A stretch of DNA of 64,000 nucleotides from Branchiostoma lanceolatum (taxonomy: Eukaryota > Chordata > Leptocardii > Amphioxiformes > Branchiostomatidae), in NCBI RefSeq assembly GCF_035083965.1, contig NC_089727.1, forward strand, positions 2,113,501 through 2,177,500, in the 5' to 3' direction. Positions 974 through 60,900 of this stretch are shown one piece after another. Positions within the stretch are counted from its first letter, which is position 1. Each line of letters opens with the position of its first letter. The notes under the pieces are model-generated. The model made no database searches, was not told where the DNA came from, and saw only the letters and a list, made by a program, of their open reading frames with translations. A program made the position numbers and the translations under genes.

Positions 974-2670
974 CGCGCCTGCGTTTCTGTAGTTCCCAAT
1001 ACACATAGCAAAGGATTGCCATACATCCTAAGTGTTGTCATTGTTTGTTTGTGGGACTGGAAGGGCCGCAAAAGCAGTCACGGTTAAGTGGTGAAGTCTG
1101 AATCTTTGCTGTTTTTGCTCATTGGCCTTCGTACAATACTTCCTTTCGTTTCGTTTCAACAGGACTTTACCCGGAAAGCCACGGTGTTTTGTACAACTTT
1201 CTTTTCGACAAGTCAACGGGGCAGGTCATGTTTCCGGAAAATGCCCAAAATTCAACGGATGTTCTGAACGCCGGAGTGGAGCCGCTTTGGGTGACGGCCA
1301 GTAAGCAGGGCAGGCGGACGGGCACCTACATGTTCGAAACCGTCCCGGGCATGCTGCCGGACGTCTACGTCAACGTGCCTTTTACCAAGCGGAACGAAAC
1401 CTTTGAAGAGATCTATACTGGTATGGGCACTGCGTTGGACTGGTTTTCGAAGGAGAATGTTGAATTCACTGCTTTTTACATCGGCACGCTGGATAATGCG
1501 TCGCATGCATACGGGCCTGAGTCCCCTGCCGCCCGGGCGAGTCTAAAACAAATAGACGGAGTTATCGGCTACCTGCTCCAACAAGTCAAACAACGAGGAC
1601 TTACGGACCTCAACATCATCCTCGCAGCCGATCACGGCTTTCGGCAAGTCTTGAACGTCTCCAACCCGATCGAGATCTACAAATACGTGGATCCATCCTC
1701 CCTGACACTGCTGCTTGCCGACCTAGGACCGCTGGCGCTGATCCAGCCGGCCCCGGGCCGAAGGGAGGAGGTGTACGCCGCGCTGGCCGGCAGCCACCCC
1801 AACATGACGGTTTACTACAAGGAGGACTTCCCGACCAGATTCCACTACGCCAACAGTCCCCGCATGACAGACATCCTGGCCATGGCGGACCCTGGATACG
1901 TCATCTATTCGGTAGGTACCTTTGATTACCTTCACCAAAAAGGTTATATGATTTATATATTGTTGGGCTGTGTGTCTATTTGTGCGCGTATATATGTGCC
2001 TGTTAATGAACAGCATAACTCAAGACGTCTCTTGTTCTGGACGTACATTGGTCGCGATTTTTAGTTGTAGAAAGCTCTTGGGACAAAAGGTACTTTGTGT
2101 AGGCTTGATGAGCCCCCTGACGGTTTATTTAGCGCTGCAGGGGCCGATTTTGTTTGATACTTTGGACGAGAATAGCTCAAGGAGTGCTTGGCTAAAAACG
2201 AGAGCCGTAGCGAAGCTGTATTCTAATACTCCCTAACGTTACTGGAAAAAGCATCATGCTTCACCTCGGATGAGGATGGCAAACGAAGTAGCTTTATCTG
2301 CGTGCTTAGTGTGCAGTAACGTCTCACATTATTTGATCATCTGTCTCGTTCGTTCTGATCACAGAGGTACCCTGGAAGGTTAATCAGCCTTGGGCAGCAC
2401 GGGTACGACAACCGGGACCCGGCCATGAAGGCGCTGTTCCGGGCGTGGGGGCCGAACTTCCGGCGGGGCTACATGCGGTCCGACCCGTTCGACTCCGTCC
2501 ACATCTACCCCATCATGTGCGAGATCCTCGGGGTGGACCCTGCGCCCAACAACGGCACCCTGGAGGAGGTCAGTGACATGCTGGTCGGGGTGAGTAGCCG
2601 GGGTTTACAGAACAGCGCTGAGACCTACGTCTTCCTGATAGCTATAGCTCTCGTAGTGATGCTGATGTGA
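534..2670 (+). CDS. ENPP6/7-like ectonucleotide pyrophosphatase/phosphodiesterase
   Basis: Three exons: 534-789, 1163-1911 and 2365-2670. Phases match (1, then 0), giving 436 aa. Residues 1-26 are a signal peptide. The alkaline-phosphatase-fold zinc site is complete: D40 in ILDGFRW, T76 as nucleophile in VTMTVPS, D196 and H200 in LDNASHAYGP, D242 and H243 in AADHGF, and H347 in GQHGYDN. The segments YLTPAYVTMT, FHYANSPR and SVHIYPIMCEILG are closest to vertebrate ENPP7 (alkaline sphingomyelinase) and ENPP6 (choline phosphodiesterase) as I remember them. The enzyme should hydrolyse phosphodiesters outside the cell; which choline lipid or nucleotide it uses cannot be told from sequence. The C-terminus ends in a short hydrophobic stretch after NSAETY, which fits a GPI signal or a membrane tail. 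The usual EPD..GH motif is altered to TLD...SH, with the metal ligands kept. Confidence 0.9.
938..971. repeat. (GT)n microsatellite in ENPP intron 1
   Basis: An uninterrupted run of GT dinucleotides lies within intron 1 of the phosphodiesterase gene. Confidence 0.9.
2155..2290. repeat. Dispersed SINE-like fragment in ENPP intron 2
   Basis: The word AAAAAGCATCATGCTTCACC, followed by a small hairpin (CCTCGGATGAGG), recurs near 35200-35235 in an HMMR intron as CATCATGCTTCACCTCAATTGAGGATG. Both copies lie in a similar AG-rich context. Two copies in 64 kb suggest a dispersed repeat whose ends were not determined. Confidence 0.5.
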
Positions 2671-3981: not shown

Positions 3982-6900
3982 TCATTCTGTCGGGTGGTCC
4001 GGGAACTGTGTCACATAGATGTGCTCGACGGCGCCGGTAGCGGTCGTCTTGGGCAGGTCGCCATCCATGTAACCTTCGGGAAATGTGATGTAGTCGTGTT
4101 CTGGTGGGGAAGGTGGCGTAGGGAAGGTGACGTAGTTGATTTCTGATGGGGAGGGTGACGTAGGAAAGGTGACGTAGTCGTGTTCTGATGCGGAAGTTGA
4201 CGTAGGGAAGGTGACGTAGTCGTGTTCTGGTGGGGAAGGTGGCGTAGGGAAGGTGACGTAGTCGATTTCTGCGGGAGGGAGAGTGACGTAGTCGATTTCT
4301 GCGGGGAGAGTGACGTAGTCATGGTCCGTGCTGTCGTCAGAAGCGCCGTCTGGGATACGATTGTTACTTGGGATCTTGAAATAGTCGGGAAAATCGAAAT
4401 AGTCGTGATCTGAGTCGTTTCCATCGCTCTCGTCGTTTGCTGTTGATGTCTTTGTGATGTTTGGGTTAGTTTTCCGTGTGTACGGGGAGCCAGGCCCGGG
4501 TGCATCACCGCTTCTAACTGTAATGTAGTCGTTCGTACAGGTCTCTATATCTGACGTGTCGTGACGATCGTAACTGACAACATGGTCGTCGGATTCATTA
4601 CGTCTAACATGGCCTCTGCTGCACCTATAAGACTCTCGTTTGTGACGCGTTTCCGTGGGTTCCAAAAAGTCCACTAACCGCCCTTCATTGTCGTAATGCC
4701 CTATTCTTCCGGGCACCACGAACGCTACGCTGTCGCAGACTTCAGCATCCGAGGGGTTTCTAAAGTTGTGGTTTGTTGAGCCCCCTGTGGTTCTTATGTC
4801 GGTTCTACGCGTACGTTTGGGTCTGGTCGAGGTATCGCGCCTGTTCTGTATTTCGTTGTCGTAATATCCGGATCCTGCTTCAATGACCGCTACGGTAAAG
4901 CTGCTGTGCACGTTACCGTCTGCGATTCTTCTTGTGTTTTCGTGTTTTGTGGAGATCTTCCCTCCTCTTCGCTGTTCGTTGTCGTAATGCCACGATTCTT
5001 GAACGGCCTGTCTCGACGTCTCAGCGTCCATTTCTGACCTTAATTGTCTTGCTCTGCCCAGATGACTTCCCCGTTTATCATTGTCATACTGCCCCTCTCC
5101 AAACTCCTCTTTTGTCACGGTAACCCTACACATTGACGCTCTCAGTTTCTCGCGGTTTATGCGCCTCGGTTTGGGCAGGTTCTCCGCATCCGCAGCGTTG
5201 TTGGCTCTCAGGATCTTTCCACGACCAGATGCGCCATTATTACCACTGCGAGTTTTCCGTACTCGACGCCTGTTAACGCTCCTTTTGTCTTGATTTGAGA
5301 ACTGGGGGTCATTCTCATAATTCGTCCTCTCAACTTCTTCTTCATTCCAGAATTCGCTGTCATTCTCATAAGGATCTGAGAACTGGTCTTCATTTTCGTA
5401 CGCTACTCCCCCGGTGTCTTCTTCATTTTCGTACGCTACTCCCCCGGCGTCTTCTTCATTTTCGTACGCTACTCCCCCGGCGTCTTCTTCATTTTCGTAC
5501 GCTACTCCCCCGGCGTCTTCTTCATTTTCGTACGTTACTCCCCCGACGTCTTCTTCGTTGTCGTAAGTTGCTCTCTCGATGCCTCCTTCTTCAGTCCGGA
5601 CTTCACCATTATTATCATTCATTTCATGAATATTGTTGCCATCATCTTGGTTCGAAACCTGACGGGTATCTTTGTCTTGACCCCTCCTACAACGCACGGG
5701 CTCTTCTTCTTTTCGCATTCTGCATTTTCGAACGATAACGACGAGAACCAGAATCACACAGACGCTAGATGCTGCTACTATCCCATGATAGAATGAAGCG
5801 TTACGTTTGAGCTGTCCGGGCGGGGTTGTCGACCCGGAGAACATGACCATGCTGAATAATGTTGTACTGAAGTCTTGCCCAGGCGTTGTCTCGTACGGAA
5901 CTACGTCAGGCCTTTGGATGGGGCCTAGATTAACTAGGGCTGATGCAGCCGCACTTTTTGTGTAGTTTCCTTGCACCCTGCATGTGTAGGTACCCGACAC
6001 GTAATTGGGATTGTCAATCGCTGTTATGTTCAACACGGAGTAGCACGTTGTTTTTCTCACATGCGTTCTGACATTCGACCCTTTCCGCATGCAGTGCAGC
6101 GTCCTCGCACTGGTACGCTTCCTTGAGGATTCCGATGTGGAAGGTAGTTCTTTTCCGTTCGGAAGAAGCCACGAAAAGTGAAGGTTTTCCTGACAGTCCG
6201 CCTGACAAGTAAGGAAGGCTGTCTCCGGTGCATCAACGGCTTGCCTTCTTAGTGTAACAGAGACTTCGGGTGGTTCACATGCTAGTCTCTCCAAGGGATA
6301 ACTACTCAGCCAATTTTGCTGTCCCTTTTCATCCGAGCACAGAACATCCAAACGCGACCGCCCTTTTATCGCTATCCACTGTTTTATTTTTCGCAACTCA
6401 CAGTCGCAAATTATCCGTCCTCCAAACCTAATGTTCATACCCCCATTGTGTTCGAACTTTGTTACGTCTCCGAGGGACGGTTGTTGAATCATATTGTAAA
6501 CAATAACTAAATCTTGAAGGGACTTCAGCAGCCATGTGTCTGTTGGGATGCGTTGAAGGCAATTTTTGGCAAGGTCCAGCCATTCAAGTTTCTGCAGCTC
6601 AGAAAAGGTACCGTTATCAATTGAGTACAGGTGGTTTAGCGCAAGATTCAGAAATTTCAGCCGACCAAGTCCTCGAAATGTTCCAGCCTCGAGTTTCCGA
6701 ATCTTGTTCATAGTTAGATCGAGGTTTGTCACATTCGGCACCGTATCGAAAGCCCCCACCTCCACTTCCGCTACTTTGCTGCCGTGAATGGTCAGAACGC
6801 GGAGGTCGGGGAGACCAGGCAACTTTCCCCTTTCGATGGTTCTGATCGTCTGAAACTTGATCACCAGGGACGTCAGCGTGTCGGGTAGCGGCGCAGGGAC

Positions 6901-7047
6901 GGCGCGAAGAGCTCCGCTCCGGGTGCAGATGATCGCCGTGGGGGGATTGCCGCCTCTCAGGCTACAGCGGTCCAGATCGGAACTCGAGAGGCAGCCCACA
7001 AATCCATCGATAAATACCCCCAACAGAAAGAGGCTAGGGATTTTCAT
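3982..7047 (-). CDS. LRR-Ig single-pass receptor with tyrosine-motif-array tail
   Basis: One uninterrupted frame encodes 1021 aa from the Met at 7047. The frame is open to a Met at 7104, but only the inner start puts a signal peptide (MKIPSLFLLGVFIDGFVGC) at the N-terminus. Domain order: a Cys-containing LRR N-cap, about six leucine-rich repeats (residues 55-200), an LRR C-cap starting IICDCELRKIKQW (210-258), and one Ig domain with the Cys pair FLTCQ...GTYTCRV (259-365). A membrane segment SSVCVILVLVVIVRKC (418-440) follows, then a 580-residue cytoplasmic tail. The tail has 12 YxN motifs (YENE/YDNE), five of them in an 11-aa tandem repeat, and a C-terminal 14-aa repeat built around DYVTFP/DYVTLP. 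IDYVTL fits the ITIM pattern, and pYxN is the Grb2 SH2 consensus. The ectodomain resembles amphioxus LRRIG/AMIGO-type proteins. Ligand and partners are unknown. Confidence 0.88.
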   Translation of the reverse strand: MKIPSLFLLGVFIDGFVGCLSSSDLDRCSLRGGNPPTAIICTRSGALRAVPAPLPDTLTSLVIKFQTIRTIERGKLPGLPDLRVLTIHGSKVAEVEVGAFDTVPNVTNLDLTMNKIRKLEAGTFRGLGRLKFLNLALNHLYSIDNGTFSELQKLEWLDLAKNCLQRIPTDTWLLKSLQDLVIVYNMIQQPSLGDVTKFEHNGGMNIRFGGRIICDCELRKIKQWIAIKGRSRLDVLCSDEKGQQNWLSSYPLERLACEPPEVSVTLRRQAVDAPETAFLTCQADCQENLHFSWLLPNGKELPSTSESSRKRTSARTLHCMRKGSNVRTHVRKTTCYSVLNITAIDNPNYVSGTYTCRVQGNYTKSAAASALVNLGPIQRPDVVPYETTPGQDFSTTLFSMVMFSGSTTPPGQLKRNASFYHGIVAASSVCVILVLVVIVRKCRMRKEEEPVRCRRGQDKDTRQVSNQDDGNNIHEMNDNNGEVRTEEGGIERATYDNEEDVGGVTYENEEDAGGVAYENEEDAGGVAYENEEDAGGVAYENEEDTGGVAYENEDQFSDPYENDSEFWNEEEVERTNYENDPQFSNQDKRSVNRRRVRKTRSGNNGASGRGKILRANNAADAENLPKPRRINREKLRASMCRVTVTKEEFGEGQYDNDKRGSHLGRARQLRSEMDAETSRQAVQESWHYDNEQRRGGKISTKHENTRRIADGNVHSSFTVAVIEAGSGYYDNEIQNRRDTSTRPKRTRRTDIRTTGGSTNHNFRNPSDAEVCDSVAFVVPGRIGHYDNEGRLVDFLEPTETRHKRESYRCSRGHVRRNESDDHVVSYDRHDTSDIETCTNDYITVRSGDAPGPGSPYTRKTNPNITKTSTANDESDGNDSDHDYFDFPDYFKIPSNNRIPDGASDDSTDHDYVTLPAEIDYVTLPPAEIDYVTFPTPPSPPEHDYVTFPTSTSASEHDYVTFPTSPSPSEINYVTFPTPPSPPEHDYITFPEGYMDGDLPKTTATGAVEHIYVTQFPDHPTE
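4085..4325 (-). repeat. 42-bp coding repeat encoding DYVTFP units
   Basis: The 3' end of the LRR-Ig reading frame is a tandem array with a 42-nt (14-aa) unit of the type HDYVTFPTPPSPPE. Shorter DYVTLP spacers lie at the upstream end. Unit length is a multiple of three, so copy-number change keeps the frame. Confidence 0.85.
5385..5580 (-). repeat. 33-bp coding repeat encoding YENEEDAGGVA units
   Basis: About five copies of a 33-nt unit, nearly identical at the DNA level, encode an 11-aa acidic YENE repeat just inside the membrane of the LRR-Ig receptor. The identity of synonymous positions suggests recent expansion or homogenisation. Confidence 0.88.
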
Positions 7048-7104: not shown

Positions 7105-7580
7105 CAGCCACTACAGGCTATTGTAGAGTCTGTGCCGATTGGCTATGGTACCTCGATAACTAGGCCTCGATTCCTTGTGCTCTTGGTTGGACGTTAACGT
7201 TGGGTCACTGGCAAAATGCACTTTACACGAAATTCCTCACTCAACTCAGGTCTAAATGAGTACCTGACTTCGGTTGGGGAGGTAAAAGGCGGTGGAAGGA
7301 GAGGTATGGGCTCTGCCTACCAACATCGATAACAACCCAATGCCCCTACGACCACTACTGGTAAGATGGGTAACAGTACCTCGTCAGTCTTGCCTTTTGC
7401 GTGGTCTCGTCTCGCTGATGTTCAGCCTTTGTCGCACTGGTCAAATATGTGATGCTTCACCTCATCGATTTCTTGTATCGCCAACGTGGTCTTGGGTCTG
7501 GAGTACTCTTGGCTCACCAAACCGTGCGTCGCCTTGAACACCGGTGTATGACTCCGAGCTTGTGTACAGGTTGAAGCTGG
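7105..7580. repeat. Upstream region of LRR-Ig gene with a SINE-like tail fragment
   Basis: The stretch at about 7200-7330 contains ACTTCGGTTGGGGAGGTAAA followed by GGCGGTGGAAGGAGAGG and GGGCTCTGCC. This block recurs near 22670-22720, 27330-27370 and 50880-50930. It is the 3' half of a dispersed tRNA-derived SINE; the tRNA-like head is missing here. Confidence 0.65.
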
Positions 7581-7581
7581 T

Positions 7582-7800
7582 GCGTTACACCGAAAGGCGA
7601 ATATAACGGCTATACATATACAGATGCTGGCGTGTTATACCGAAGGGCGGTTATACCGTTTGTACTGCAAATACAAAGGCTGGTGTGTCACGCCGAAGAG
7701 CGGTTATACCGGCTGTACAGATACAGAAGCTGGTGTGTTACGCCAAAGAGCGGTTATACCGACTTTGAGAGATACAGAATTCCGTCAGAGCTGAGTTGTG
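7582..7800 (+). repeat. Minisatellite, about 56-bp unit (CGGTTATACCG family)
   Basis: Three to four degraded units of a GAAGGGCGGTTATACCG ... ATACAGAAGCTGGTGTGTTA repeat. The same unit, on the other strand, forms a longer array at 13462-13868, and a single degraded copy lies near 58320-58390. Confidence 0.8.
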
Positions 7801-13200: not shown

Positions 13201-14371
13201 TACTGTACAAAACTGGTGCGGTACACATAAAGGCGGTTTACTGGTTAAGAAGAACAAACAAATGAGTAAGTTACAAAGATGTACCTGAGTGGAATGATGA
13301 TGAGGATGATGGCCTTCTCGTGCACGTGGTACCCGAAGAGGAAGGAAGCGAAGGCGCAGAGGACGAGGCAGCGCAGGAAGTCCCGCGGTGTGCACGGTCG
13401 TCTCCACAGGTGCACCAGAGCAGGCTGGGGGAAAATCAAAACATGAAAAATGTGATTATTTTATCTATATCTGTATAGCCGGTATAACTGCCATTCGGCA
13501 TAACACACCAGCTTCTGTATCTGTATCTATATAGCCGGTATAACCGCCATTCGGCGTAACACACCAGCTTCTGTATCTGTATCTATATAGCCAGTATAAC
13601 CGCCATTCGGCGTAACACACCAGCTTCTGTATCTGTATCTATATAGCCGGTATAACCGCCATTCAGCATAACACACCAGCTTCTGTATCTGTATCTATGT
13701 AGCCAGTATATCCGCCATTCGGCATAACACACCAGCTTCTGTAAATTGTACATGTATCTATATAGCCGGTATAACCGCCATTCGGCATGACACACCAGCT
13801 TCTGTATTTGTATCTACATTGTATAAAGCCGGTATAACCGCCATTCGGCACAACACACCAGCTTCGCTATATTCATCTTCACGGAACAGAAACATATTGT
13901 TTTTGCTACAGTAACATTTCTTTTTCCTCTACTTCTCCAAACAAATAATGTCATTGAAAGCTGGCAAGTAAATCAGTCTTCCTGTATACTTCCTGTATAT
14001 CATGGCCATTACAACATGCAGTCAATGGATAGTACAATCAGCACCAAGGAAAGGGAATACTGTACATCCCCAAGGTGCTCACAAAGTTAAACTTACATAA
14101 AGCTTACAACATTTCCCCACAAATGCCAACCAGATACATGTGTACACAGACAGACACAAACCCACTGAAACCCACCTACCCACACACATGGAGATACACA
14201 AACAGACATAGACGTACACACATGCAGACATACACTCACAAACACACATACTACGCACACAGAGACACACACAAACACACACAATGTGACATCCACTCAC
14301 ACAGACATCCACACACCTAGACACATATGCACCCAAACATGTACTGTACACAGGCACATACAAACACACGG

Positions 14372-20190: not shown

Positions 20191-23100
20191 ATGCAGGCCT
20201 CCCTCAGCACCACAGAGGCAGTGCGGGTGTACAGGGAGCTGGCACGGAGGCCCAGCGTCGCCCGCGCATGGATCAACTCTGCGAAAGACGTGGGGACAAC
20301 TGAGAGGAAACTTGCTGAGGTCAACTCCCTCTGGTCTCAGAGGGACATCGAGACGTCGAAGACCGCCAAGTTCATCAGGCATGTTGTTGTCGTTTTTGTT
20401 GTTGTTGTTGTTGTTTGCTCTTCAATAGCTCCTGTGAAGAGTTGACTTATGTGGGTTTCTCAAATTCTATATGCTTTCTAACATATTGAGATATTCTTAC
20501 ACTCAAGTAAGTGAAGTACCCACAATGTACTTAGAGTATATTTATACCAGAAGCTCACTTTAAAAGTTCACTACTAATGAAATGCAAAGATGTTCTACTA
20601 TATGCATGAGCCACTGTGTTTGTTCCTATGATACCCTCGTCATTAACATGAAACCCCTTTTGAATGATATGAAAATAAAAGGAGATTCCCCCAATTTTTG
20701 CTAGATTGTTGTTTGATGTCTAAATCTCATAAGTGTTTGATTTTGCTTAATCTCTAATTGTCTGATTTTTCTTCCTCAGGAGCCACAGGGTGGACGTGGC
20801 GGACGGCCGCGTGGCGAGTACGGAGGTCTGCGGAGCTCCTGTCGACACCAGCACCTGCCTGCTGCAGCAGACCTCTCCCTCGGGGAACTTCTCCGCAATC
20901 CTCCGTCTCATCTCCGACAAGCAGTACCTGGAGGTCTGGAGCCGCACCTGTAAGCTGAAGAACGTGGAACTGCAAGTCCTGGAGAAGCACGGGAAGGTGT
21001 ACGATGACGGAACATTCGGGTGTTTCCAGTGGTCCCCTTGTGAACGGTACCTTTTGTACGTCGCTGAGAAGAAAATGCCCAAGGTGGAGTCTTTTTTTTA
21101 ATTTTGATTATCATTCACACATACAAAAGTACAAAACATAACAACACATAGACAATTGCACAAATATATACCAATATTATTGCTACAGGGGTCACTCCCA
21201 CTGCCTTTTTTGGCTAGGGTATGCTCCCTCAGACTTTTTGACAGGTGTTTCATCCCTCCTGGATTTTTCTGTGCTAGGGTTTCTTCCAAAGGAGTAGGAC
21301 TACTAGTATATCTGTGCAGGGATGTTATCCCTGGGTCTCTGTGCAATGTTTTCCTTCCAAGTCGGACTTATAGCTTCTCTTAATTTTCATTACATATTTT
21401 TCAAATATTACAATTCCAGATGGAGTCGTTCTTCAAGCGGAAAGACAAGGAGAAGGCGGAGTCCGATGATGCGCCGGTGCGGGGGGAGGAGTTTGTGTAC
21501 CAGGAGGACTGGGGGGAGGGGCTGGTGTCCAAACATCGCCCTGTTCTCTGCATCTTTGACGTGGAAGAGGAAACAACACAGGTAAGCTGGTAAAGCCGTT
21601 ATGCAATAGATAAGGCCATACCAATTTCAAATCCAGATACCAGAATGCCTCCTTGGACACAAGCAAGAAGTGGTTCATGGACATATCCAGCCATTCTACT
21701 CTGTTAGATTATGAAAAGTCCAAGATATAAATGGATTATAATGCTTGAGGGCTCTAGACTATCAGAACTTGCAGTGATTTCTGTGGTATGAAATCCAATG
21801 CACTAGAGAGGTGAAGTTGACACCCAGTCAAATGCATGACTTGCAAGGATGCTGGAATGGTAGCAGAATGATTGCTTGAAAGGAGTGCTGCATAATTTTC
21901 TATGTTCAGTTCCTTTAGGTTCTTCAGTTCTTGAAAGTGAGAAGGCTCAAAAATTCTAATGCCATTGTTTTCTAGGTTCAAACTTTCCAACTTCTGCAAT
22001 TTTCTAAAGTTCCCTGGTCATTATCTTCACAGGTGCTGACGAGTGTTCCCGACGAGGTGTCCCCCGGACAGGCGGTGTGGTGTCCCGACGGGAAAGGCGT
22101 GGTGTTCGTGGGGTGGTGGCACGTTCCCTTCCGCCTGGGGATCATCTACTGCACCAACCGCAGGAGCGCCCTCTTCCGCCTGGACCTGGAGGGGCAGGCG
22201 TGCGAGCAGCTGACGGGAGACGGGCTGTCGGTGCGATGTCCGCGGTTCAGCCCCGACGGCAGCCGCCTGGTGTTCCTGCAGAACCCTGCAGGGGGGCCGC
22301 ACAACAGCTGCAGCCAGGTGAGTGGGGAGTGTTTTTAAACATATTATGTAGTCCGTGAATAGTTGCATCAGGTTGATAAGTCACTGAACCAGTCAGAATT
22401 GCCTTGAAGAAAGTGACAGATCTGATGGTCACCGAAACGTCAGTGGGATTAATCTCTTGGTTGTGTAAAACAAGTCTTTTTATTCACTGTATAATGTAGT
22501 TCCCAAGATGTTCTGGTATCATGTTTGTGTAACAGTAAGGGTGTTTTGCCCAGAACACAGAGGTCATGGGTTCAAATCCCCTGACATGCCACCGATGTTG
22601 TTCCCTTGGGAATGGCACTCTACACAAGTTTCCTCACTTGACCCACCTGGTGTAAAAATGGATAGCTGACTTTGGTTGGGGATGTAAAAGGCAGTGGAAA
22701 GAGAGGGTTGGGCTCCGCCTTCCAACACTAGTACTGCACCCTAGGCATAGTGGATAACAACTGTCAACTCATGCTGAAGGGATTACCTTTACCTTTTTCT
22801 TCAGTTCCAAAGAAAATAGATTATAATTGTGACTTATTAATCCATCTTACACATTTCCTGCTTCCTTTTCTTGGACCATTATGTGGGAATAAATAACCAG
22901 TCGAATTCCATTGCTTAAGCTAGTACCACCAGTAGAATTGGACATAACAATCTGCATATGTACACGTGTACATTATTTCTTAGAAACTTTCAAGATAAAA
23001 TCCCCTGGCCTATTTTATAGTAGAGAATATTTGAATCAATTACAAAAGACTGACTCTAACTTACATCCTCCCACAGGTGGCTGTGTATCTATGGAAGGAG

Positions 23101-47000: not shown

Positions 47001-50000
47001 AGTAGAGTTGTTGTTTTTATTCGAGTGAGAAAGCAGACGTAGTGGAGACGCATTCAAGTTGGAAACTTATATTAGCGTCACCAATAAACATACGAATACA
47101 AACTTGTAACAAAACATGATGCACTAACTTATAACGAAATATGATAAGCTAAAACAATGGGCCGGGGCCCCGAAGCCACAATTTTTCCCGTTGGACTGCC
47201 GGGCACTGGATGGGTACATTCTCACGATTAGACTACGGCACCTATTTGTTACCGGGTCCTGTGTTGATTTTAACGCTGGGTGCCGCGGGATCACGTGGGG
47301 GTCACGCTCAAAAGAACCAGCCCGTAAACTGCCCGGCAGGGCCCCTTTTTCCAATTCCTACCGTAGCATTAGGGAGTACACATGCTTACGTTTATGGTTT
47401 TTGTTTTTTTACAGTCAATTCGCAGTGCTGTAACGAAACTCTTTGCAACAATGCCAGTTTCGTACCGACCACGGTTGCCCCGACGACAACGGAGACCACT
47501 CTAGTAACAACCCAACCCCAGACCACCCTCCTGACGACAGACCCTGTACCGACCACAGAAATGACCGAAACCACGCTCTACACAGAAGCGACGGTTGCAG
47601 CGACGGAAACGACAGGTACAGACGACATTGATACTACATTCTTAACCATGACTGAATATGACACAACAATAGATGAGCGAACCGATGGAACAACCTCATT
47701 CGAAACCCTGGTAATGACCGAGCTATCTACCGTAGAAGCGACCGAAACTCCAGTCACCACCGACCTTGGTACTATACTTATAACCATGACACAAGATGCC
47801 GCCACCACAGATCAACAAACCGAAGTAAACACCCAATCTGAAACACTTGTGATGACCGAAATACTGACAACCATAGGACTGACTGACACTACGCTCGTCA
47901 CAGAAGAATCTGGCCTCACAACAGTTGAGCCGACTGAAACTATGCTTGTCACGGAAGAACTGGGCTTAACAAGTACAGACACCACGGACATCGGCACTAC
48001 ACTCGTGACCATGACACAAGATGAGACAACGATAGATCAACAAACCGATGGAACAACTCCATTCGAAACCGTAGTGATGACTGAGCTATCTACCATAGAA
48101 GCGACCGACACTACGCTCGTCACGGAAGAGGCAGAGCTGACGACAGCTGAAGCGACGGAAACGATGCTTGTCACAGACATCACCGGCCCTGGTACTACAC
48201 TAGTGACCGTTACACAAGATGAGACAACATCAGATCAACAAACCGATGCAACAACCCCATTCGAAACCGTAGTGATGACAGAGCTACAATCTACGGTAGA
48301 AGCAACCGACACTACGCTCTACACTGAAGATCCAGGATTCACGACAGAAGAAACCACGCTCTACGCGGAAGACTCAACATTGACGACAGAAGAAACCACG
48401 CTCTACACGGAAGACTCAACATTGACGACAGAAGAAACCACGCTCTACACGGAAGACTCAACATTCACGACAGAAGAAACCACGCTCTACACAGAAGACT
48501 CAGGATTCCCGACAGAAGAAACCACGCCTTACACGGAAGACTCGGGATTCACTGTAGAAGAAACCACGCTCTACACGGAAGACTCAGCATTCGCGACAGA
48601 AGAAACCACGCCTTACACGGAAGAAACAGAACCAACAGCAACAGGTATTACCGATATTGGTACGACTCTTTTAAGCATGACACAATTTGACACCACCATA
48701 ACATATGAACAAACAGAGCTAACTACCCCACCCCGATCTACCTCATCCGAAACCCTAGTGCCAACCGAAACAGCACCCAACACAGAAATGTCCGAGCTAA
48801 CGACGGAAGAGGTTTTGTCAACAGATCGGACAACGAACGCCCTTCAAGTTATCACAGGTATCACTAACACAGCTGATAACACACTCTTAGCCACTACACA
48901 GTATGACACCGCCTCAGATCAGCAAACCGAAGAAGCCACCTCAGCGGGAACTACACTCGACACAGAAGGACCAGGGTCGACAACGATAGAGATTCGGTCT
49001 ACAGAACTGCCAATGACGTCACCCCAAACTGATTTAGGTATCACTGGCCTTGGCGTCACTGCTAATTATTACATAATATAACACAGCGTAGAAACAAGGC
49101 ATAATATCCACCCACCCTTTAGAAATGTAGATACACGTAGAAACAATCCCAGTTCAACACAACTACCTCAATAGTCCCCACAACTGCATGTAGTCTCAGC
49201 CAGTGATCACTTTTGAACATCCTCTACAGCGATATGCATAAACCCAACCCAAACTATCACATTAGAGCATTAGCACGTACATTATTCTATAGATTATTTC
49301 TTCCATTAGTCATAGATTAGATTAGTTCTTTGTATTTGTTAACTATTAGCAATAGTTCAACTCTCATATGCGTAAGTTGCCATACATTGTACCAGATACA
49401 ATTGTCGTGCAATAAAGTTCTTCTTCCTCTAGACACTAAATCACTTTCGACACTTGCAATGGCATTATATAATTTTACATATCTTTCCATACAGAAACAA
49501 CAGAGCTGTCAACTACACTCGGGACAGGGGTCACGACAGAAGGACCGACCCAGCCTACAGAAGGGACAGGGCCAACCACAGAAGGACCGACCCAGCCTAC
49601 AGAAGGGACAGGGCCAACCACAGAAGTACCGACCCAGGCTACAGAAGGGACAGGGTCAACCACAGAAGTACCGACCCAGGCTACAGAAGTGACAGGGTCA
49701 ACGACAGGAAGAACGACCCAGCCTACAGAAATGACAGGGTCGACGACAGAAGGAGTGACCCAGCCTACGGGAGCGTCCGGGTCTACGACAGGAGTGACCC
49801 AGCCTACAGGAGCGTCCGGGTCTACGACAGAAGGAGTGACCCAGCCTACAGGAGCGTCCGGGTCTACGACAGACGGAGTGACCCAGCCTACGGGAGCGTC
49901 CGGGTCTACGACAGGAGTGACCCAGCCTACAGGAGCGTCCGGGTCTACGACAGGAGTGACCCAGCCTACAGGAGCGTCCGGGTCTACGACAGAAGGAGTG

Positions 50001-50735
50001 ACCCAGCCTATAAGAGCGTCTGGGTCTACGACAGAAGGAGTGACCCAGCCTACAGGAGCGTCCGGGTCTACGACAGAAGGAGTGACCCAGCCTACAGGAG
50101 CGTCCGGGTCTACGACAGGGGTGACCCAGCCTACAGGAGCGTCCGGATCTACGACAGGGGTGACCCAGCCTACAGGAGCGTCCGGGTCTACGACAGGGGT
50201 GACCCAGCCTACAGGAGCGTCCGGTTCTACGACAGGAGTGACCCAGCCTACAGGAGCGTCCGGGTCTACGACAGAAGGAGTGACCCAGCCTACAGGAGCG
50301 TCCGGGTCTACGACAGAAGGAGTGACCCAGCCTACAGGAGCGTCCGGTTCTACGACAGAAGGAGTGACCCAGCCTACAGGAGCGTCCGGGTCTACGACAG
50401 AAGGAGTGACCCAGCCTACAGGAGCGTCCAGGTCTACGACAGAAGAAACGACCCAGTCAATAGTAGTTACCATGGCAACGGACGCCATTAGTAACACAAC
50501 GACAGTGAGCGTCGACCAGCCGGCAGCAGGGGCTAACGTCGGGCTGATCGCGGGGTGCTCCGTGGGGGGCGTGCTGGCGCTAGGGCTGCTCGCCTCGGCC
50601 GTCGCGCTCCTCCTGAAGCGGAAGAAGATGGGCAAGGGCAAGATACATCCCGGGGACGGCGTGGAGGCGCCGGGGGGCCCGGCAGAGACATACAAGTCAT
50701 TCGACCCGTCTACTAGACGTGTTTTTAGCGAGTGA
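44084..50735 (+). CDS. Transmembrane mucin with N-terminal Ly6/uPAR domain
   Basis: Five exons: 44084-44129, 44837-44979, 46810-46900, 47415-49037 and 49495-50735. Every phase matches, giving 1047 aa. A signal peptide ([16 protein letters not shown]) is followed by [10 protein letters not shown] and a ten-cysteine LU domain ending CCNETLCNN (to about residue 107). That is the three-finger fold of Ly6, CD59 and uPAR. The next 540 residues are Thr/Glu-rich with long repeats ([14 protein letters not shown]-type) and a 14-aa [14 protein letters not shown] array. The last exon adds Pro/Thr/Ser 13- and 14-aa repeats ([14 protein letters not shown], 17 units), a membrane span ([20 protein letters not shown]) and a 39-residue basic tail with ETYKSFDP. 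It should be a heavily O-glycosylated cell-surface protein. I know no named orthologue with this order. The frame open upstream of 47415 is intronic. Confidence 0.88.
46475..46625 (+). mobile_element. SINE-like element, truncated
   Basis: CGTAACGGCAGGGTGTTCGG, then CCGGGTTCGAATGCCCCG (a good pol III B box), then CCCTTGGGAAAGGCACTT and CTCCAGGTGTGAAAATGGG. Member of the family at 22530 and 50756, lacking the 3' half. In an intron of the Ly6-mucin gene. Confidence 0.7.
48335..48630 (+). repeat. 42-bp coding repeat ([10 protein letters not shown] units) in the mucin
   Basis: About seven units of 42 nt with the core GAAGAAACCACGCTCTACAC. Repeat length is a multiple of three. Confidence 0.9.
49540..50450 (+). 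repeat. 39/42-bp coding minisatellite in the mucin last exon
   Basis: An upstream block of 42-nt units ([14 protein letters not shown] type, to about 49740) is followed by 17 units of 39 or 42 nt with the core GGAGCGTCCGGGTCTACGAC. The two unit lengths differ by one codon. The array stays open in several frames on both strands. Confidence 0.93.
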
Positions 50736-52939: not shown

Positions 52940-55900
52940 TTAACTTTCCTGGACCAAGTCAATCTCAGAGGTAAGGTAGTCCATAATTTGCGGCATCAGG
53001 GCCCCGAATTTCGTGAGAGGCCAGGTGGAGAACGGATAGTAGATCTCTCGGGCTCGAGTCGCCCCTCCTCTGATGATGGCCATGGCGGTCTGGTCTACCG
53101 GGGTTAGAATTCCAAGCATCTCTGGTGAATTCTGGAACAAATTCATGAGTAAAACCGTTGTAATAGAGACCCCGTTCATACTAAGCCTTTCATAGCCGGC
53201 TGAATAAATTAAAAGATTTAGCCGGCTAATTAACCCGGCTATCTTGGCTTAGTATGAACGCAATTTAACCGGCTAAATAAGGGTTTTAGCAGGCTAACTT
53301 TAAACCACCTCAGGAGGTGGTTTGAAAAACCCTTTCTAAAACCCTTATTTAGCCGGCTAAATTGCGTTCATATTAAGCCAAGATAGCTGGGTAAATAGCC
53401 GGCTAAATCTTTCAATTTATTCAGCCGGCTATGAAAGGCTTAGTATGAACGGGGTCAGAGTCAACTTTTACCAGATTCCTTTATAATATTGAAGCATGTA
53501 TCAAAAGCTCTCAAATAGACTCGATTAGCTGCGGGAAAATAGTGGAGATTGGTTAGCTCCTCTGTCAAGCTGTTGACTTCATCTTACCTCTAAGTTTTCA
53601 TCTTACCTCTAAGTTTTTAATGACTTTTGGAGTCCCGATGTAGCCCAGCACGGCGAGAGTGACGGACACGTCCTGCTGAGCCTTCATCAGTTCCACACGG
53701 AGGGAGCTGAAGAACCCGTCCAACGCGAACTTCACGGAGCAGTAGAAACTCAAGTTTGGCCAAGGTACTTTACCTACAGATAGAACACATGGAATGCAAA
53801 ATTATGTTTCACGCTAGAGAACAAGGTTCTTTGTACAGAACCAAGTGTTTTTACCTAGCCGACATTTTGGTGACGGTCTGTCCCCTTCCTCAGGGCAATA
53901 ATGACTGTTTCTACTTCGCACTGCAGCTAGGTGGCGCTGCTGCAGTGTGAAGAATGCGGTTCCAAAAGTGACTAAGTTTATAGACCCCCCCCCCCCCCCC
54001 AATCCAGTTCCGTTACTGGAGCTCGTTATTGAAAAGATGAAGTCAAACTGGGCTTAGCTCGATGCATTTTTAGAAAGTAGTAGACTGTAGGAACGATTAT
54101 AGCTCTTAATATCATTGCATTCATCACTTTTACATATATAGTGCTATGTTACATGAAATTCACTTGTATTCGCTACAAGGCTGTAGGCGCTATTCAATGC
54201 ATTAAACTTACTTTGGTCGCACTTCACTCTCAACGCAAATAGTATCGCTTTTGTTATAGTTAAGTAGATCTGTACATGCTAGCCAAATGTTTGTTACGAA
54301 CACTTAATGATGCATTTGTTAATAATGCAAACAAAACGAAAGAAATATAAGTGATGAATTACCGAAACCAGAGGAAACTACTACGAGATGTCCTTTACTC
54401 TCCTTCAGCAGAGGCAGGGCCAGGGAGGCCAGCCGGACGTAACTGACCAGGTTGATGTTCAAGTAGTCTTCGAAGAAGTCCACATCCGGGTCTTCGTCCC
54501 AAGACTTGCCCTCGTGAAATTTGTCTTGAAGAGATTTATAGTTGGACCCAACATGGTTCAGCACCAAGTAGTCCAACCTCCCTGGGAAAGATGTAAAACG
54601 TTATTGTTGAATTTATTCAATTTTAGCTGGTTCTATTCGCTATCTATCAACTTTGAACGTCAACATGTTTCGTTGTGACCTGTACTTAGCCCAGTGTAGT
54701 AAAATACTAACAAATTTGCCCTTGATCCTGATAGTTCGATGAGATTTTCAGGACTGGAGTCTTCTTACACAACATGTATATAATGTTTGAATTTTTAAAA
54801 GATTTATCGCCCTACCGAATTTCTCCTTGGCTGTTTGAATGGTTCTCTCACAGTCCTCCGCCTTCCCCATGTCCCCGGCCACGTAGTGCGCCTCCTGGGC
54901 ACCCAGAGACTTCGCCTTCGCCACGACCTCGGGGGAAAATAATCATCTACTTTAGCTCACCAAGAAAATTGTCTTCTGACTTGTACGTGTTTTCTACCGA
55001 CATTGAATTCCCATAGTTTTCATGGCCTTATGTATAGATTATTAACGAACCTTTAAAACACTAGCTCTGAAATGGTTCCATTAGCCCAAATAACATTTTT
55101 TGTGAATTTCTTTAGTAATTTTTTTAATTTTTATTTCTTGATTTATTCATTAGTGTGAATTTCTCGCTAATCTGTCTGTTCATTTTTCTGACTTCTGCAG
55201 CATCAACTTTGGGCCCGGACCGAACCAGCCTTCCAAGTTTTCCAATCCTGCAAGTCTCCTGTTACACCATTTTGCGAATCACATCCTGCCACCTTGGGCC
55301 CGAGTCAGCCGGGGGACAAAATTACACACACACCAAGACAAGCAAAAGAAAACAGAAACAATACAAGCATGCAAAGGTGCTTTCTCACCTCCTTCAACCT
55401 GTTCTCCCTCCTGGCTGTGATGAGGATCTTTGCTCCCAGCCGGGCGTACTGGTACGCCATCTCTTCGCCGATGCCGGTACTGCAGCCCGTGATGACGACT
55501 GTTGCACCGCGTACAGATTCTGAGGGACAATGTGAATGGTGCGAAATTATGTATCTCGAGCTTTAGAGCTTGTAACCGGATAACTCAAAGAAAAAAAGTC
55601 AGGTGTCAAGCCACGAAACCCGCACTGCGCCAAAAGTGGGATTTACTAACGGCGATGAATGCCCGGTAAGTTCCCAAAGCAACGAATCATGCCAGTTTAA
55701 CCGGGTATTGTTGGACTTATGCTAGGGTCACATTTCCAACCCGGAGCCCGGCCGGGCAGCTTGTGGGAACGAAAACTATGACATAAAAGACAACAAAACA
55801 CACAAAACTTTTGAAAAATTATTCCTTACCATACGTTATATATATCCTTGATATGCGTCTTTTATTCTTTGTTTTCTCAAACAGCCCGGCCGGGCCCCGG

Positions 55901-57067
55901 CTTTGAAATGTGACCGAAGCATTAACTGGCATTTATCGCTATTGGTAACGGATCCAATTTTCGTGCCGTGTTGGAGTCAAGAAATAACTGCGCCTCCCGT
56001 CAGGACATGTGGTGTATCTAAAACACACACGCGTGTGAATGTTTCGCTTGTTGAGGTCAATAAGTTGATGACGTTAGAATGCGAAGGTAAATCTAACAAT
56101 TACTCCAAAGCATAGTATTTCGCCATCTAGCGTTGTCACTCGTATTTTCACTTCTAAAGTAAACGAGTGAACCTTTGACAACCTTCAAGTCTTAAAATGT
56201 AAATGGACACATTTGAGTTACAATATTCAGACTGCCAATGCTTGGACAAAAGACCCGTCAATAGGGATGTATATAAGGTGCGTGATGGCAGTTAAACAGC
56301 CAATATTTACACGGGTCCAAGCCATAGTACTTTCCGATGACCACAGCACCAGTAACACCAACAAAGTAACCCACGTTATACTTAGTCGCGATTTTTTAGT
56401 ACTTCATCAAAGGGAGAAACTCAGCTCGAACGAAGCATTACAAAGAACTGTTGGTCTGTCACAGTCTCACAAGTGACCACGCCCACCTTACAAGTTAAAT
56501 AAAGGGTTACCTAACTTGGGTCCACTAAGACGGAGCGCGTCTTGTCAAAATAAGTTATAAGCGTTGTTAAGGATCAAACATATTCCTTTTACGACATGTC
56601 TGTAGAGGTTATGACAGAACCCACCGTGGTTAAAGATCTATGACAAGAGAGCTGAAGTTTGTACGACATATTCGCGGCTGTCCCAAAAATGAGTTTTCTG
56701 TCGTAGACCTGTCGTGCAATCGTCTACTACGACGAATATGACTAGCCTCCACCAGGCTATGGGGGTACAGATGGTATACTAGAATTCGGCCAAAAAGTTG
56801 AATAACTGGCCAGGAAAGTCAGTCCACGGTGAGGTTAACCTTTTCCCCTCCGAAGCGCCTGCTGCAAATGAAAACCTCAAACGCTCCTGGCAAAGTATTC
56901 TTCCTACAGGCGATGTGGTGAGTCTGGTAGAGACTAGAATATGACTTGCCTCTAGAGGTAAGTCATGGCAGCGACTTACCCGGATCGAAGCCATCGTAGT
57001 TCCAGTAGATTCCGACGGCAACGGCACCGAGTAACACCAGCAGACTAGCCCGCACTAGGAGCGACAT
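52940..57067 (-). CDS. 11beta-hydroxysteroid dehydrogenase 1-like protein, copy A
   Basis: Six exons from high to low: 56980-57067, 55389-55519, 54816-54927, 54363-54581, 53607-53773 and 52940-53131. Phases agree, giving 302 aa. An N-terminal hydrophobic anchor (MSLLVRASLLVLLGAVAVGI) is followed by a short-chain dehydrogenase. The nucleotide-binding motif is TGCSTGIG (residues 40-47), then VLNHVG, INLVSYVRLAS, catalytic S181 in VVVSSGFGK, and Y194/K198 in FYCSVKFALDGFF. The Ser-Tyr spacing of 13 equals human HSD11B1. Expected to be an ER-membrane NADP(H) oxidoreductase of steroids or other carbonyls; the substrate is unknown. The Tyr context YCSVK differs from the usual YSASK. It is the most downstream of a tandem array. 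Intron 1 and intron 5 carry TIR elements. Confidence 0.93.
53168..53456. mobile_element. Palindromic foldback MITE, 289 bp
   Basis: The whole element is one inverted repeat: arms of about 143 bp at roughly 95 percent identity meet at AAACCACCTC-AG-GAGGTGGTTT near 53312. The ends read GACCCCGTTCATACTAAGCC and its reverse complement. The flanks share AGA, a weak candidate 3-bp target duplication. TTAGCCGGCTAA sub-palindromes recur inside. In HSD copy A intron 5. Confidence 0.88.
55717..55924. mobile_element. TIR element in intron 1 of HSD copy A
   Basis: The element spans 55720-55921 (202 bp). Its inverted ends share GGTCACATTTC and CCCGGCCGGGC. TTA flanks both sides (55717-55719 and 55922-55924). 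A 3-bp TWA duplication is typical of PIF/Harbinger elements, so that class is inferred. The paralogous intron of copy B holds an unrelated element at the same site. Confidence 0.8.
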
Positions 57068-57948
57068 GGCGAGTGTATGTGTGTTTATACAGAGGAAGGA
57101 GCAGGTAGGACAAAGGTCACTTGAAGCAAGCACCTGCTATACACGTGGCCATACGAGTGACTCTCGATTGAGCCGCAAAACGGGGGCGTCGTCGTTTTAC
57201 GACAGGCCTGGATCGCATGTATAGTTATGTTGTTTTCTGGCTCTCCTGTCGGTCAAGTTCCACAGAAATAATGGACATAATCATACACAAGCACACGTAC
57301 GCAAACATTCACGACGTATTGCTAGTATTCCTATTGCGATATAGAAATATATAAATAAGCACATGGAACACAATGGACGAGTTGTGTACCACATTTTGAT
57401 GCCAATTTCGAGGCACAATTTCCAACATAAGAGTTTATTAACGTGCTGGTGGGACTCTACATCGCAACGACTTAGATTCTATGCAGTTCGTGTATATATC
57501 AGTATCATTCGATCAATCGAAACATAATGACAGTGTTTTATGGCGCATTAAGATACATAGCAACAAAGCGGTGTCTTACATTGAGAAATTCCTGACAGAT
57601 ACAGATTCAGCATGAATAGATAAATTAGTAACTTAAACATTCCAGGATGTCCCCGACATAAACACAATGGTATAATTTATAACTCCAGTCGTAAATCATC
57701 TCATATTTGCATGAATTTCACACGAAATTTGAACAATATACATGCAAAATCATGACCAGTAGCAAACATGTGTCCGTCTTTTTCCAGCGCAAATTTAACG
57801 ATCTATGGAAGGTTTTGGATGGTTTAGAACAGAAATGAGAATATAAGCAAGATATAGCTTTTTGCAGTCCGATGTTTTTCTGAACCTAAAACGTTTTTAC
57901 AAGCCCAGTTCAGGTCCGGTGTTTAGTTACGCAGCACTCAACCAGTTA
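57068..57948. other. Spacer between HSD copies A and B
   Basis: Holds the copy A promoter and copy B 3' UTR. Apart from the 57500-57600 similarity to 51620-51715, nothing was recognised. Confidence 0.45.
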
Positions 57949-60900
57949 TCATATAATGATACTGTAAAATAATACAACGATATAATCAGGCACCAGAGCC
58001 CTCAGTTTGGAAAAGGGCCAGGTGTGGAAGGGATAGTAGATCTCCCGTGCGCGGGTTGCACCTCCCCGGATAACCGCCAGGGCGGTCTCGTCCGTCGGGG
58101 CGAATTTTTCCAGTACCTTGTCACCGTCTGGCTCAGTCTGTAGTAAAAAAAAGAAGAACACAGTGAATAACAGGCAGGAAGACATCCCCCACACAACCAC
58201 GCTATACGAAGATAGCATTTGGAAAATGTATAACTGTGGAAACACCGACACAGACAGGTCGTTCAGTCTGATATAACCAGCTGCTGCCGCGCCGCGTGCC
58301 TGCGAAGCCGAATAAGGGTTATCTGTATCTTTATTTATATAGCCGGTTTAACCGCCCTTTGGCGTAACACACCTGCTATACCGGCTTTATCAAAACAGAT
58401 ACAGACATAGACAGAACATAAACAATACCTCCCCGTGAATTACTAGCCTCTGACCACGAGGCCACCTTACCATCTGGATTGAGCTGCAAAGAAGTCAAAA
58501 TACAGTAATTTACTAGTTTACTAATAAAACTATTTGCGTACTTTTAAATGGTTGGAGAATGTTGGGGTGGCGATGAAACCCAGCACGGCGAGAGTGACGG
58601 ACACGTCCTGCTGAGCCTTCATCAGTTCCACACGGAGGGAGCTGAAGAACCCGTCCAACGCGAACTTCACAGAGCTGTAGAAGCTCATGCCTGGAAATGG
58701 CATCTTTCCTGTCCACAAAGAAGAGCAACAGTCTTTAGCACACAATTCTGTGTGAAGTAATTATGGTGTCTGGTTTGTGGTGAGGCTAACGTGTTCAATA
58801 CCCTCTTTAATTACAGACATGCCAAATTTCAGACACATCCATCAAAAGTATATTGATTTATAGGTGCAAAGACACAGACGCAGACAAAAACCACCTCTTT
58901 ACTACAACGAGGATCCACTTCATTCTCATACGCACAAAACTGTGACAGTTTTTGTTCACCTTTTCATTGATTGTACAGGTAGGTTTTTGTGATTGATTTC
59001 ATACCGACAAGTCTTGTTTCCTCTTTTATTTATTAAACTTTAGGGTGGTCCCTTCAGTTAACTAAGTTACTGATTTCCAATGGAGCCCTTATTATGATTA
59101 CATTATAGATAATAGATAAAGGTCATAACATAAAATGATTAAACATAGGAATATATACAATAGCACTAGAATCATCAAACATCATACAAAATCCTCTTTA
59201 TTGTCTTTCGTATTGCCACCTATATATCCCCCACATAATCATCACCGGCGCCACCTGGAAGGCCTGCAATGGAGGCTAGGCACGATGTGTCAGTCGCTCT
59301 TCTTTATTAATCTTACCTCCCAAAGACCCGACGACCACGATGTGTCCTTTGCTCTCCTTCAGCAGAGGCAGGGCCAGGGAGGCCAGCCGGACGTAACTGA
59401 TCAGGTTGATGTTTAAGAAGTCCACGAAGAAGTCCATATCCGGGTCGTCGTCCCAAGACTTGCCCCTCCACAGATCGCTAAACATGTCCTCAAAAGATTT
59501 GAAACTCGACCCGACGTGATTCAGCACCAGGTAGTCCAACCGACCTGCACAAGATGTGAAGTCTTAGGGTTACGTTTAGATCTCCTTATTGCATGAATAC
59601 TACTCTTTACCGGACTATTTTGTGGACTGAACGAATATAGAAATATGTTACAATATGGGGATTGTTTTGTCTGAGGGTTGGGCGGTCATTACCTTCAAGA
59701 AAAAGGAGGTGTTCTTTTAGGCCTGCCTGGCTGTGTTTGTATGTGTGTGTGTGTGTCTGTGCGTCTATATGTGTTCCGAATTTTGTTGAGAACCTCTGAA
59801 TACATTTTAATGACATTTGGTTTGTGGATAAGTTTGGGGAAGACGAAGGTCAATGTCAATTTGTTACTTACCCTGAACTGGTCCTTTATATGAATTATCA
59901 TGAAATATAGACATGGTATTCTACCAAGGGAAAGGACTTTCACACATAAAAATCACACATGTAACTATGGTAGAGAATTCCACCATTTAAAATAGATCTG
60001 GCTAACTGATTGCAACCTTATTCGTATCATCAATGGCACAAGATAAAACAATAAGTATACAAACTCTTAATATATCATGAAGGTATGGGGTCTGAATATT
60101 CGTCCATTGGTTACAAATTGGAGGCATGACTCCTCTTGCAAAAGATACTATTTTACCAGTAATCCTGGTAGAGACTAGTCAAACACCCTCCTCCTACTCC
60201 GCATGTCCTAAAACTTCAGTTTTCGACTTACCGAATTTCTCTTTGGCTGTTTGAATGGTTCTCTCACAGTCCTCCGCCTTCCCCATGTCCCCTGCCACGT
60301 AGTGCGCCTCCTGGGCACCCAGAGACTTCGCCTTCGCTACGACCTAAGAGCAAACCAAACGCCAGAGACGTTTGTAACTATATTTCATGACTTACTTGTC
60401 TCTCAGTCAGACTTTCCTACTTCCACTAAGCTTCGCTATTTGTCATTTACAAAAATATGAAATGAAATTGAATATGCCTCCGTGAAAAAAAAAGGTTTTT
60501 GTGAATCTATTGTTTTATTCATCATTGAACATTTCTCGCTAATCCTGTCTGTGCATTTTCTTCCCAATGCAACGTTGTACCCGGGCCAAGCCAACCTTGT
60601 TATCTTGCCAGTCTCCGGCTACACCATCTTTCGCCGAACATCCTGTCACTCAATATAATATTCAAATAACTGCACACCTAGACAAACAAACAAACCAAAA
60701 ACGATACCTTCGTTTTCACGGAGGTAGAAGGCAAAACTTCCAAACACTATTTGTGGTGTTTGGAAGGTTAATCAAAATGAAACAGTGCAAAACGGAGTCT
60801 TCCCACCTCCTTCAGCCTGTTCTCCCTTCTGGCTGTGATGAGGATCTTCGCTCCCAGCCGGGCGTACTGGTACGCCATCTCTTCGCCGATACCGGTACTG

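Follow-up and report, generated by a model that had tools for sequence, protein, structure and literature searches.

A leucine-rich repeat and immunoglobulin receptor gene of Branchiostoma lanceolatum with two blocks of tyrosine motifs in its predicted cytoplasmic tail

The receptor gene and its domains

When a 64,000-nucleotide stretch of Branchiostoma lanceolatum DNA (contig NC_089727.1, positions 2,113,501 to 2,177,500; hereafter the window) was analyzed, an uninterrupted open reading frame (ORF) encoding 1021 amino acids was observed on the minus strand, with its ATG at 7047 and its stop codon at 3982; the same frame is closed by a stop 66 bases ahead of the ATG. The predicted product is a receptor with leucine-rich repeats (LRR) and a probable immunoglobulin (Ig) domain, and its long tail carries 12 YxN and nine Y[VI]T motifs. 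An earlier note on this DNA had placed an LRR-Ig receptor at the same coordinates, and both the position and the architecture were borne out. The features of the gene, in window coordinates, are as follows.

3982-7047, minus strand: whole receptor ORF, LRR-Ig with long tyrosine-rich tail (ORF and translation)
6991-7047, minus strand: signal-peptide-like N-terminus, residues 1-19 (hydropathy alone)
6277-6969, minus strand: LRR domain with LRRCT-like cysteines 214, 216, 237 and 257 (LRR_8, E 2.6e-21)
5950-6273, minus strand: one probable Ig domain, residues 259-366 (Ig_3, E 4.5e-4; I-set, E 7.9e-4; both below the curated cut-off)
5731-5787, minus strand: predicted transmembrane segment, residues 421-439 (Kyte-Doolittle maximum 2.71)
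5689-5730, minus strand: basic juxtamembrane stretch with cysteines 442 and 453 (residue composition)
3985-5730, minus strand: cytoplasmic tail, residues 440-1021, predicted disordered (charge-hydropathy; no Pfam or PDB match)
5387-5565, minus strand: 33-bp minisatellite, 5.4 copies, with six YxN, Y495-Y550 (Tandem Repeats Finder, TRF)
5308-5370, minus strand: two YEND outside the 33-bp array, Y560 and Y577 (motif positions)
4684-5088, minus strand: four widely spaced YDN[ED] in unalike context, Y654, Y688, Y729 and Y785 (motif positions)
4516-4527, minus strand: lone YITV, Y841 (motif position)
4085-4320, minus strand: 42-bp (4085-4291) and 30-bp (4242-4320) minisatellites with seven Y[VI]T[LF]P, Y911-Y986 (TRF)
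4006-4017, minus strand: terminal YVTQ, Y1011 (motif position)

The LRR_8 match in Pfam reached 75.6 bits against a cut-off of 27. In the case of the Ig domain, the Pfam scores were below the curated cut-offs (Ig_3, 21.1 bits against 30; I-set, 19.9 against 23.7), although the core residues are in the expected place (cysteines 281 and 356 with a WLLPNG stretch between them). A PDB search with this domain alone did not place it, its two matches, to VEGFR1 (E 0.14) and amphioxus IgVJ-C2 (E 0.21), being insignificant. When the receptor was used as the query, 243 distinct PDB chains were found at E <= 0.001, and among the best 60 of these the best-aligned stretch was always in the LRR region. The names among those 60 (IGFALS, LRRC15, TLRs, LRIG1, LGR4/5, VLRs and decorin) span many families, so the match identifies the LRR fold and not a subfamily.

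Residues 421-439 are the strongest hydrophobic 19-mer of the receptor, as expected of a single transmembrane segment. Three cysteines (430, 442 and 453) lie in or beside this segment with no CxxC arrangement, and palmitoylation of the juxtamembrane ones is possible. The ectodomain (about 420 residues, LRR and Ig) is ordinary and the tail is unusual; none of the eight tyrosines in residues 1-415 falls within a YxN or Y[VI]T motif.

Tyrosine motifs, minisatellites and selection

The tail comprises 582 residues and 28 tyrosines. Twelve are in YxN motifs (Y495, 506, 517, 528, 539, 550, 560, 577, 654, 688, 729 and 785), nine are in Y[VI]T motifs (Y841, 911, 920, 930, 944, 958, 972, 986 and 1011) and seven are in neither (Y728, the first of a YY pair, 807, 826, 856, 883, 889 and 993). 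The earlier note had given the counts as 12 and about nine, for a tail of 580 residues, and the motif positions support its division of the tyrosines into two separate classes. Neither Pfam (E up to 10) nor the PDB sequences (E up to 1) gave a match to the tail. The charge-hydropathy relation predicts it to be disordered, with net charge blocks of -34 (residues 485-580), +13 (581-640) and -18 (906-1021). Immunoreceptor tyrosine-based activation motifs (Yxx[LI]x6-12Yxx[LI]), immunoreceptor tyrosine-based switch motifs and YxxM were considered and rejected with 0 matches in the tail, and neither NPxY nor PPxY was found there.

The 33-bp array spans six of the 12 YxN motifs. Identity among the four units at its centre is 94-100 %, and the outer two are 61-82 % like the others, a pattern that would fit a recent expansion. 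The remaining six YxN motifs, Y560 to Y785, follow at successive spacings of 10, 17, 77, 34, 41 and 56 residues. On the Y[VI]T side, six of the nine motifs are spanned by the 42-bp array (4.9 copies), and the overlapping 30-bp array brings the number to seven, with Y841 and Y1011 outside. Thus, the earlier claim that each class sits in its own in-frame minisatellite holds for the presence of two in-frame arrays and fails for the sites beyond them. The further claim that signalling valency is set by minisatellite copy number is not supported in that form: only half of the YxN sites are within arrays, and the other half would escape copy-number change.

When the residues of the whole tail were shuffled 20,000 times, 2.1 YxN and 0.2 Y[VI]T motifs were expected, and the maxima were 9 and 3, respectively. 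As tandem copying inflates this test, tests avoiding copying were used. With the extra array copies dropped, seven YxN (P 8e-5) and three Y[VI]T (P 1.7e-4) were left (100,000 shuffles). Outside the 33-bp array (residues 557-905), all six YxN motifs are Y[DE]N[DE], where 0.034 are expected and none of 200,000 shuffles reached six. Residues 585-905 contain four Y[DE]N[DE] against 0.023 expected (P 5e-6).

Seven diverged YxN units were then compared. Their +1 and +3 positions are acidic in all seven, and their flanking positions agree in 0-19 % of pairs. The units were picked by YxN, so the conservation of Y and N in 7/7 is circular and is not evidence; the acidic positions played no part in the choice. 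In the motif codons of the seven units, the proportion of silent differences (pS) is 0.93, near saturation, and that of replacement differences (pN) is 0.10, with pN of 0.62-0.70 in the flanks. The earlier note had asked whether the tyrosines are conserved less than the residues around them in orthologues; when the comparison was run between motif copies within the gene, the acidic +1 and +3 residues were kept and the surroundings were unalike. As Y[DE]N[DE] recurs outside the array in unalike surroundings, the motif looks selected and not merely copied. The YxN class as a whole looks to be under selection, for which the six motifs beyond the 33-bp array make the strongest case.

Other minisatellites were observed in the window. 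Two Thr/Ser-rich mucin-like ORFs on the plus strand (47210-49081 and 49473-50732, the second with a hydrophobic segment near its end, followed by a short tail) carry in-frame 42-bp minisatellites (48314-48624, 7.4 copies, and 49528-50456, 22.6 copies). Coding-frame repeat expansion is therefore not unusual here, nor special to signalling tails. A 50-56 bp minisatellite is present at 7573-7761, just upstream of the receptor start, and at 13462-13865, and the units at the two places look like mutual reverse complements.

Among the neighbouring genes, an ENPP-like gene (1102-2667, plus strand; E 2.5e-46 to ENPP7) is convergent with the receptor gene. A short LRR fragment (21757-22017, minus strand; LRR_8 E 3.6e-9; best PDB match TLR13, E 1.3e-11) lies on the strand opposite to an S9 peptidase-like gene, inside the stretch that this gene covers, and exon-like pieces of short-chain dehydrogenases (54322-59563, minus strand) apparently represent at least two tandem gene copies. 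The ENPP-like, peptidase and dehydrogenase genes are consistent with animal DNA. When the ectodomain and tail were searched against the window by tblastn, only the receptor gene itself was found below E 0.8, with no paralogue. Rfam and tRNA scans of the window gave no matches.

A proposed two-block phosphotyrosine scaffold and its alternatives

The explanation we prefer, and to which in full we give about an even chance, is that the gene encodes an LRR-Ig surface receptor of type I, with a disordered tail that acts as a phosphotyrosine scaffold in two blocks. Ligand clustering would lead to phosphorylation of the tail by a Src-family kinase (Lck-like). The pYxN motif (pY, phosphotyrosine) is a recognised Src homology 2 (SH2) site of the Grb2 family, and up to twelve pY[DE]N[DE] sites would recruit Grb2-family adaptors (Grb2 or GADS) by their SH2 domains. 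Cross-links between Grb2 molecules or other adaptors could then produce a membrane condensate to which SOS or SLP76 would be recruited. The C-terminal Y[VI]T[LFV] block would bind tandem-SH2 phosphatases (SHP or SHIP type) and act as a brake resembling an immunoreceptor tyrosine-based inhibitory motif (ITIM). Slippage in the two in-frame minisatellites would add or remove some of the sites in each block, and the single-copy sites outside the arrays would set a floor on the site number.

Several observations weigh against this explanation, as does the bbGADS result given below. The YxN count by itself is a weaker pattern in residues 585-905 (P 0.007). In the 42-bp array, the core has four silent and three replacement changes and the spacer has one and five (Fisher P=0.27), which is no significant selection; for this reason the Y[VI]T class, unlike the YxN class, is held as only probably selected. 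(Pairwise pN/pS in this array, 2.73 for the spacer and 0.29 for the core over four copies, was not relied on because the same changes are counted repeatedly.) The earlier note had described an ITIM-fitting IDYVTL, and residues 918-923 do fit the strict consensus [SIVL]xYxx[IVL]; it is the only such site in the tail, and the other eight of the nine Y[VI]T motifs do not fit, most having H or D at -2 and F at +3. In addition, AATAAA and ATTAAA are absent from the 1,581 bases past the receptor stop, and among the polyadenylation hexamers sought only GATAAA (+260) and AATATA (+294) were found there.

It is possible, though in our judgement unlikely, that the arrays simply result from a tendency of the genome to form minisatellites, and that the tail is a tolerated spacer whose motif multiplicity has no function. 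The mucin-like ORFs with in-frame 42-bp arrays and the non-significant test in the receptor's own 42-bp array agree with this. So does the published instability of amphioxus minisatellites: BflGb6 has six and three units in two haplotypes, coding and intron-exon minisatellites are unstable, and somatic instability was reported at Adh3 (PMC3087553; this paper, PMC4623810, PMC5431462, PMC8211107 and PMC9181613 are cited for excerpts of their text). However, copying fails to explain the six Y[DE]N[DE] outside the 33-bp array and the two Y[VI]T outside the arrays.

The Y[VI]T[FLV] block could alternatively be a set of YxxPhi sorting signals, causing endocytosis by binding to AP-2 mu2. The protein would then be mainly a phagocytic or recycling adhesion receptor and the YxN block its sole phosphotyrosine scaffold, a combination we consider doubtful. 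Ten Yxx[LIVMF] sites are present in the tail, including eight of the nine Y[VI]T motifs (the exception is YVTQ), but one or two copies are normally enough for internalisation signals. FrLRR, an LRR protein of amphioxus, promotes phagocytosis and is found in association with Grb2, but it has no cytoplasmic tail and is thus no precedent for a receptor tail (PMC10199209).

A non-working receptor (a pseudogene, an assembly error or an ORF whose expressed form is a different one) is very improbable, as the missing common polyadenylation hexamer and the sub-threshold Ig scores stand against 1021 stop-free codons, the strength of the LRR match, the LRR-Ig-transmembrane-tail order and the mostly silent change in the motif codons.

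Comparison with known receptors and scaffolds

A working two-block scaffold would invite comparison with LAT and EGFR. LAT has almost no ectodomain and EGFR has a kinase, and we know of no minisatellite-built sites in either; LAT-type adaptors have a juxtamembrane palmitoylated CxxC. The receptor has the several Grb2/GADS-type YxN sites of LAT, but its ectodomain is far from very short, and its cysteines 430, 442 and 453 are not in CxxC. With so large an ectodomain it is not a LAT by anatomy and may only be LAT-like in its working. The tails of LAT and EGFR, and by prediction that of the receptor, are membrane-anchored and disordered with several Grb2-type sites, and those of LAT and EGFR condense with Grb2 (PMC9181613). 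In the same study, the EGFR tail (~200 residues, few pY sites) condensed with Grb2 alone on membranes, depending on phosphorylation, the Grb2 SH2 domain and the Grb2-Grb2 interface. We infer that a 12-site tail would condense with Grb2 more readily than the EGFR tail.

Grb2 of Branchiostoma belcheri (BbGrb2) has been cloned (PMC10199209), as have its bbslp76, bbGADS and bbItk (PMC5431462). According to the excerpts of the latter study, a LAT-like molecule was not found in amphioxus, and recruitment of the SLP76 complex might fall to an unknown molecule bound to the membrane. With twelve YxN motifs, three cysteines in or beside the transmembrane segment and a disordered tail, the receptor is a candidate for the missing membrane molecule in the role of LAT. 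The bolder proposal is that it is the LAT substitute, or one of them, and bears its own LAT-like Grb2/GADS scaffold of many sites along with an ITIM-like block that opposes it, the strength of each being adjusted in populations by a coding minisatellite of its own; this we regard as improbable. In T cells, no association of bbGADS with human LAT was observed (PMC5431462), which makes the SH2 preference of bbGADS uncertain, and it may read YxN unlike human GADS. If the proposal were true, one receptor would have a docking valency that is inherited and changes fast, and a separate array would adjust each of the two signs of its signalling. The receptor also gives a concrete candidate for the published open question of an amphioxus with SLP76, GADS and Itk in which no LAT-like molecule was found (PMC5431462).

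Tandem tyrosine segments of CagA can change SH2 binding sharply (PMC4623810). The EPIYA-C segments of CagA belong to a bacterial effector of Helicobacter and not to a host receptor, and no sequence relation is claimed; neither this precedent nor BflGb6 shows variation at the receptor gene. In open-licence PubMed Central, no paper was found on minisatellite copy number setting the SH2 or phosphotyrosine valency of a receptor, which does not show its absence from print, and a search there on amphioxus LRR-Ig receptors gave nothing on point.

The LRR-Ig-transmembrane order is shared with the LRR-Ig adhesion receptors (LRIG1, LRRC4/NGL, LINGO and AMIGO). To our knowledge, tails with 12 YxN are not known in the LRIG1, LRRC4, LINGO and AMIGO families. 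The best 60 of the 243 PDB matches include LRIG1 (4u7l, E 4.3e-25) and LRRC4C (3zyj, E 4.3e-16), and AMIGO is not among these 60. As the LRIG1 and LRRC4C matches cover the LRRs only, like those to TLRs, VLRs and decorin, the receptor was not placed in these families.

BbLcLRR of B. belcheri (GenBank MW390887) is an LRR transmembrane receptor of 699 amino acids with a WSC domain and, in the excerpts, no Ig domain listed. Lck phosphorylates three tyrosines in its tail (DDYATV, HDYSEV and HDYDDP), and its inhibition of T-cell activation, seen in Jurkat cells, depends on these tyrosines; it associates with SHIP1 and, more weakly, with SHP1/2 (PMC8211107). Both proteins combine transmembrane LRR architecture with cytoplasmic tyrosines, and HDYVTF and HDYITF of the receptor resemble the two HDY sites of BbLcLRR, by comparison of motif letters only. 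The BbLcLRR sites likewise misfit the strict ITIM at -2. Unlike the receptor, BbLcLRR has three mapped sites, and the excerpts describe neither arrays nor a YxN block. On this comparison, we regard the receptor as a variant of the amphioxus tyrosine-motif LRR receptors that is unusual in its tail.

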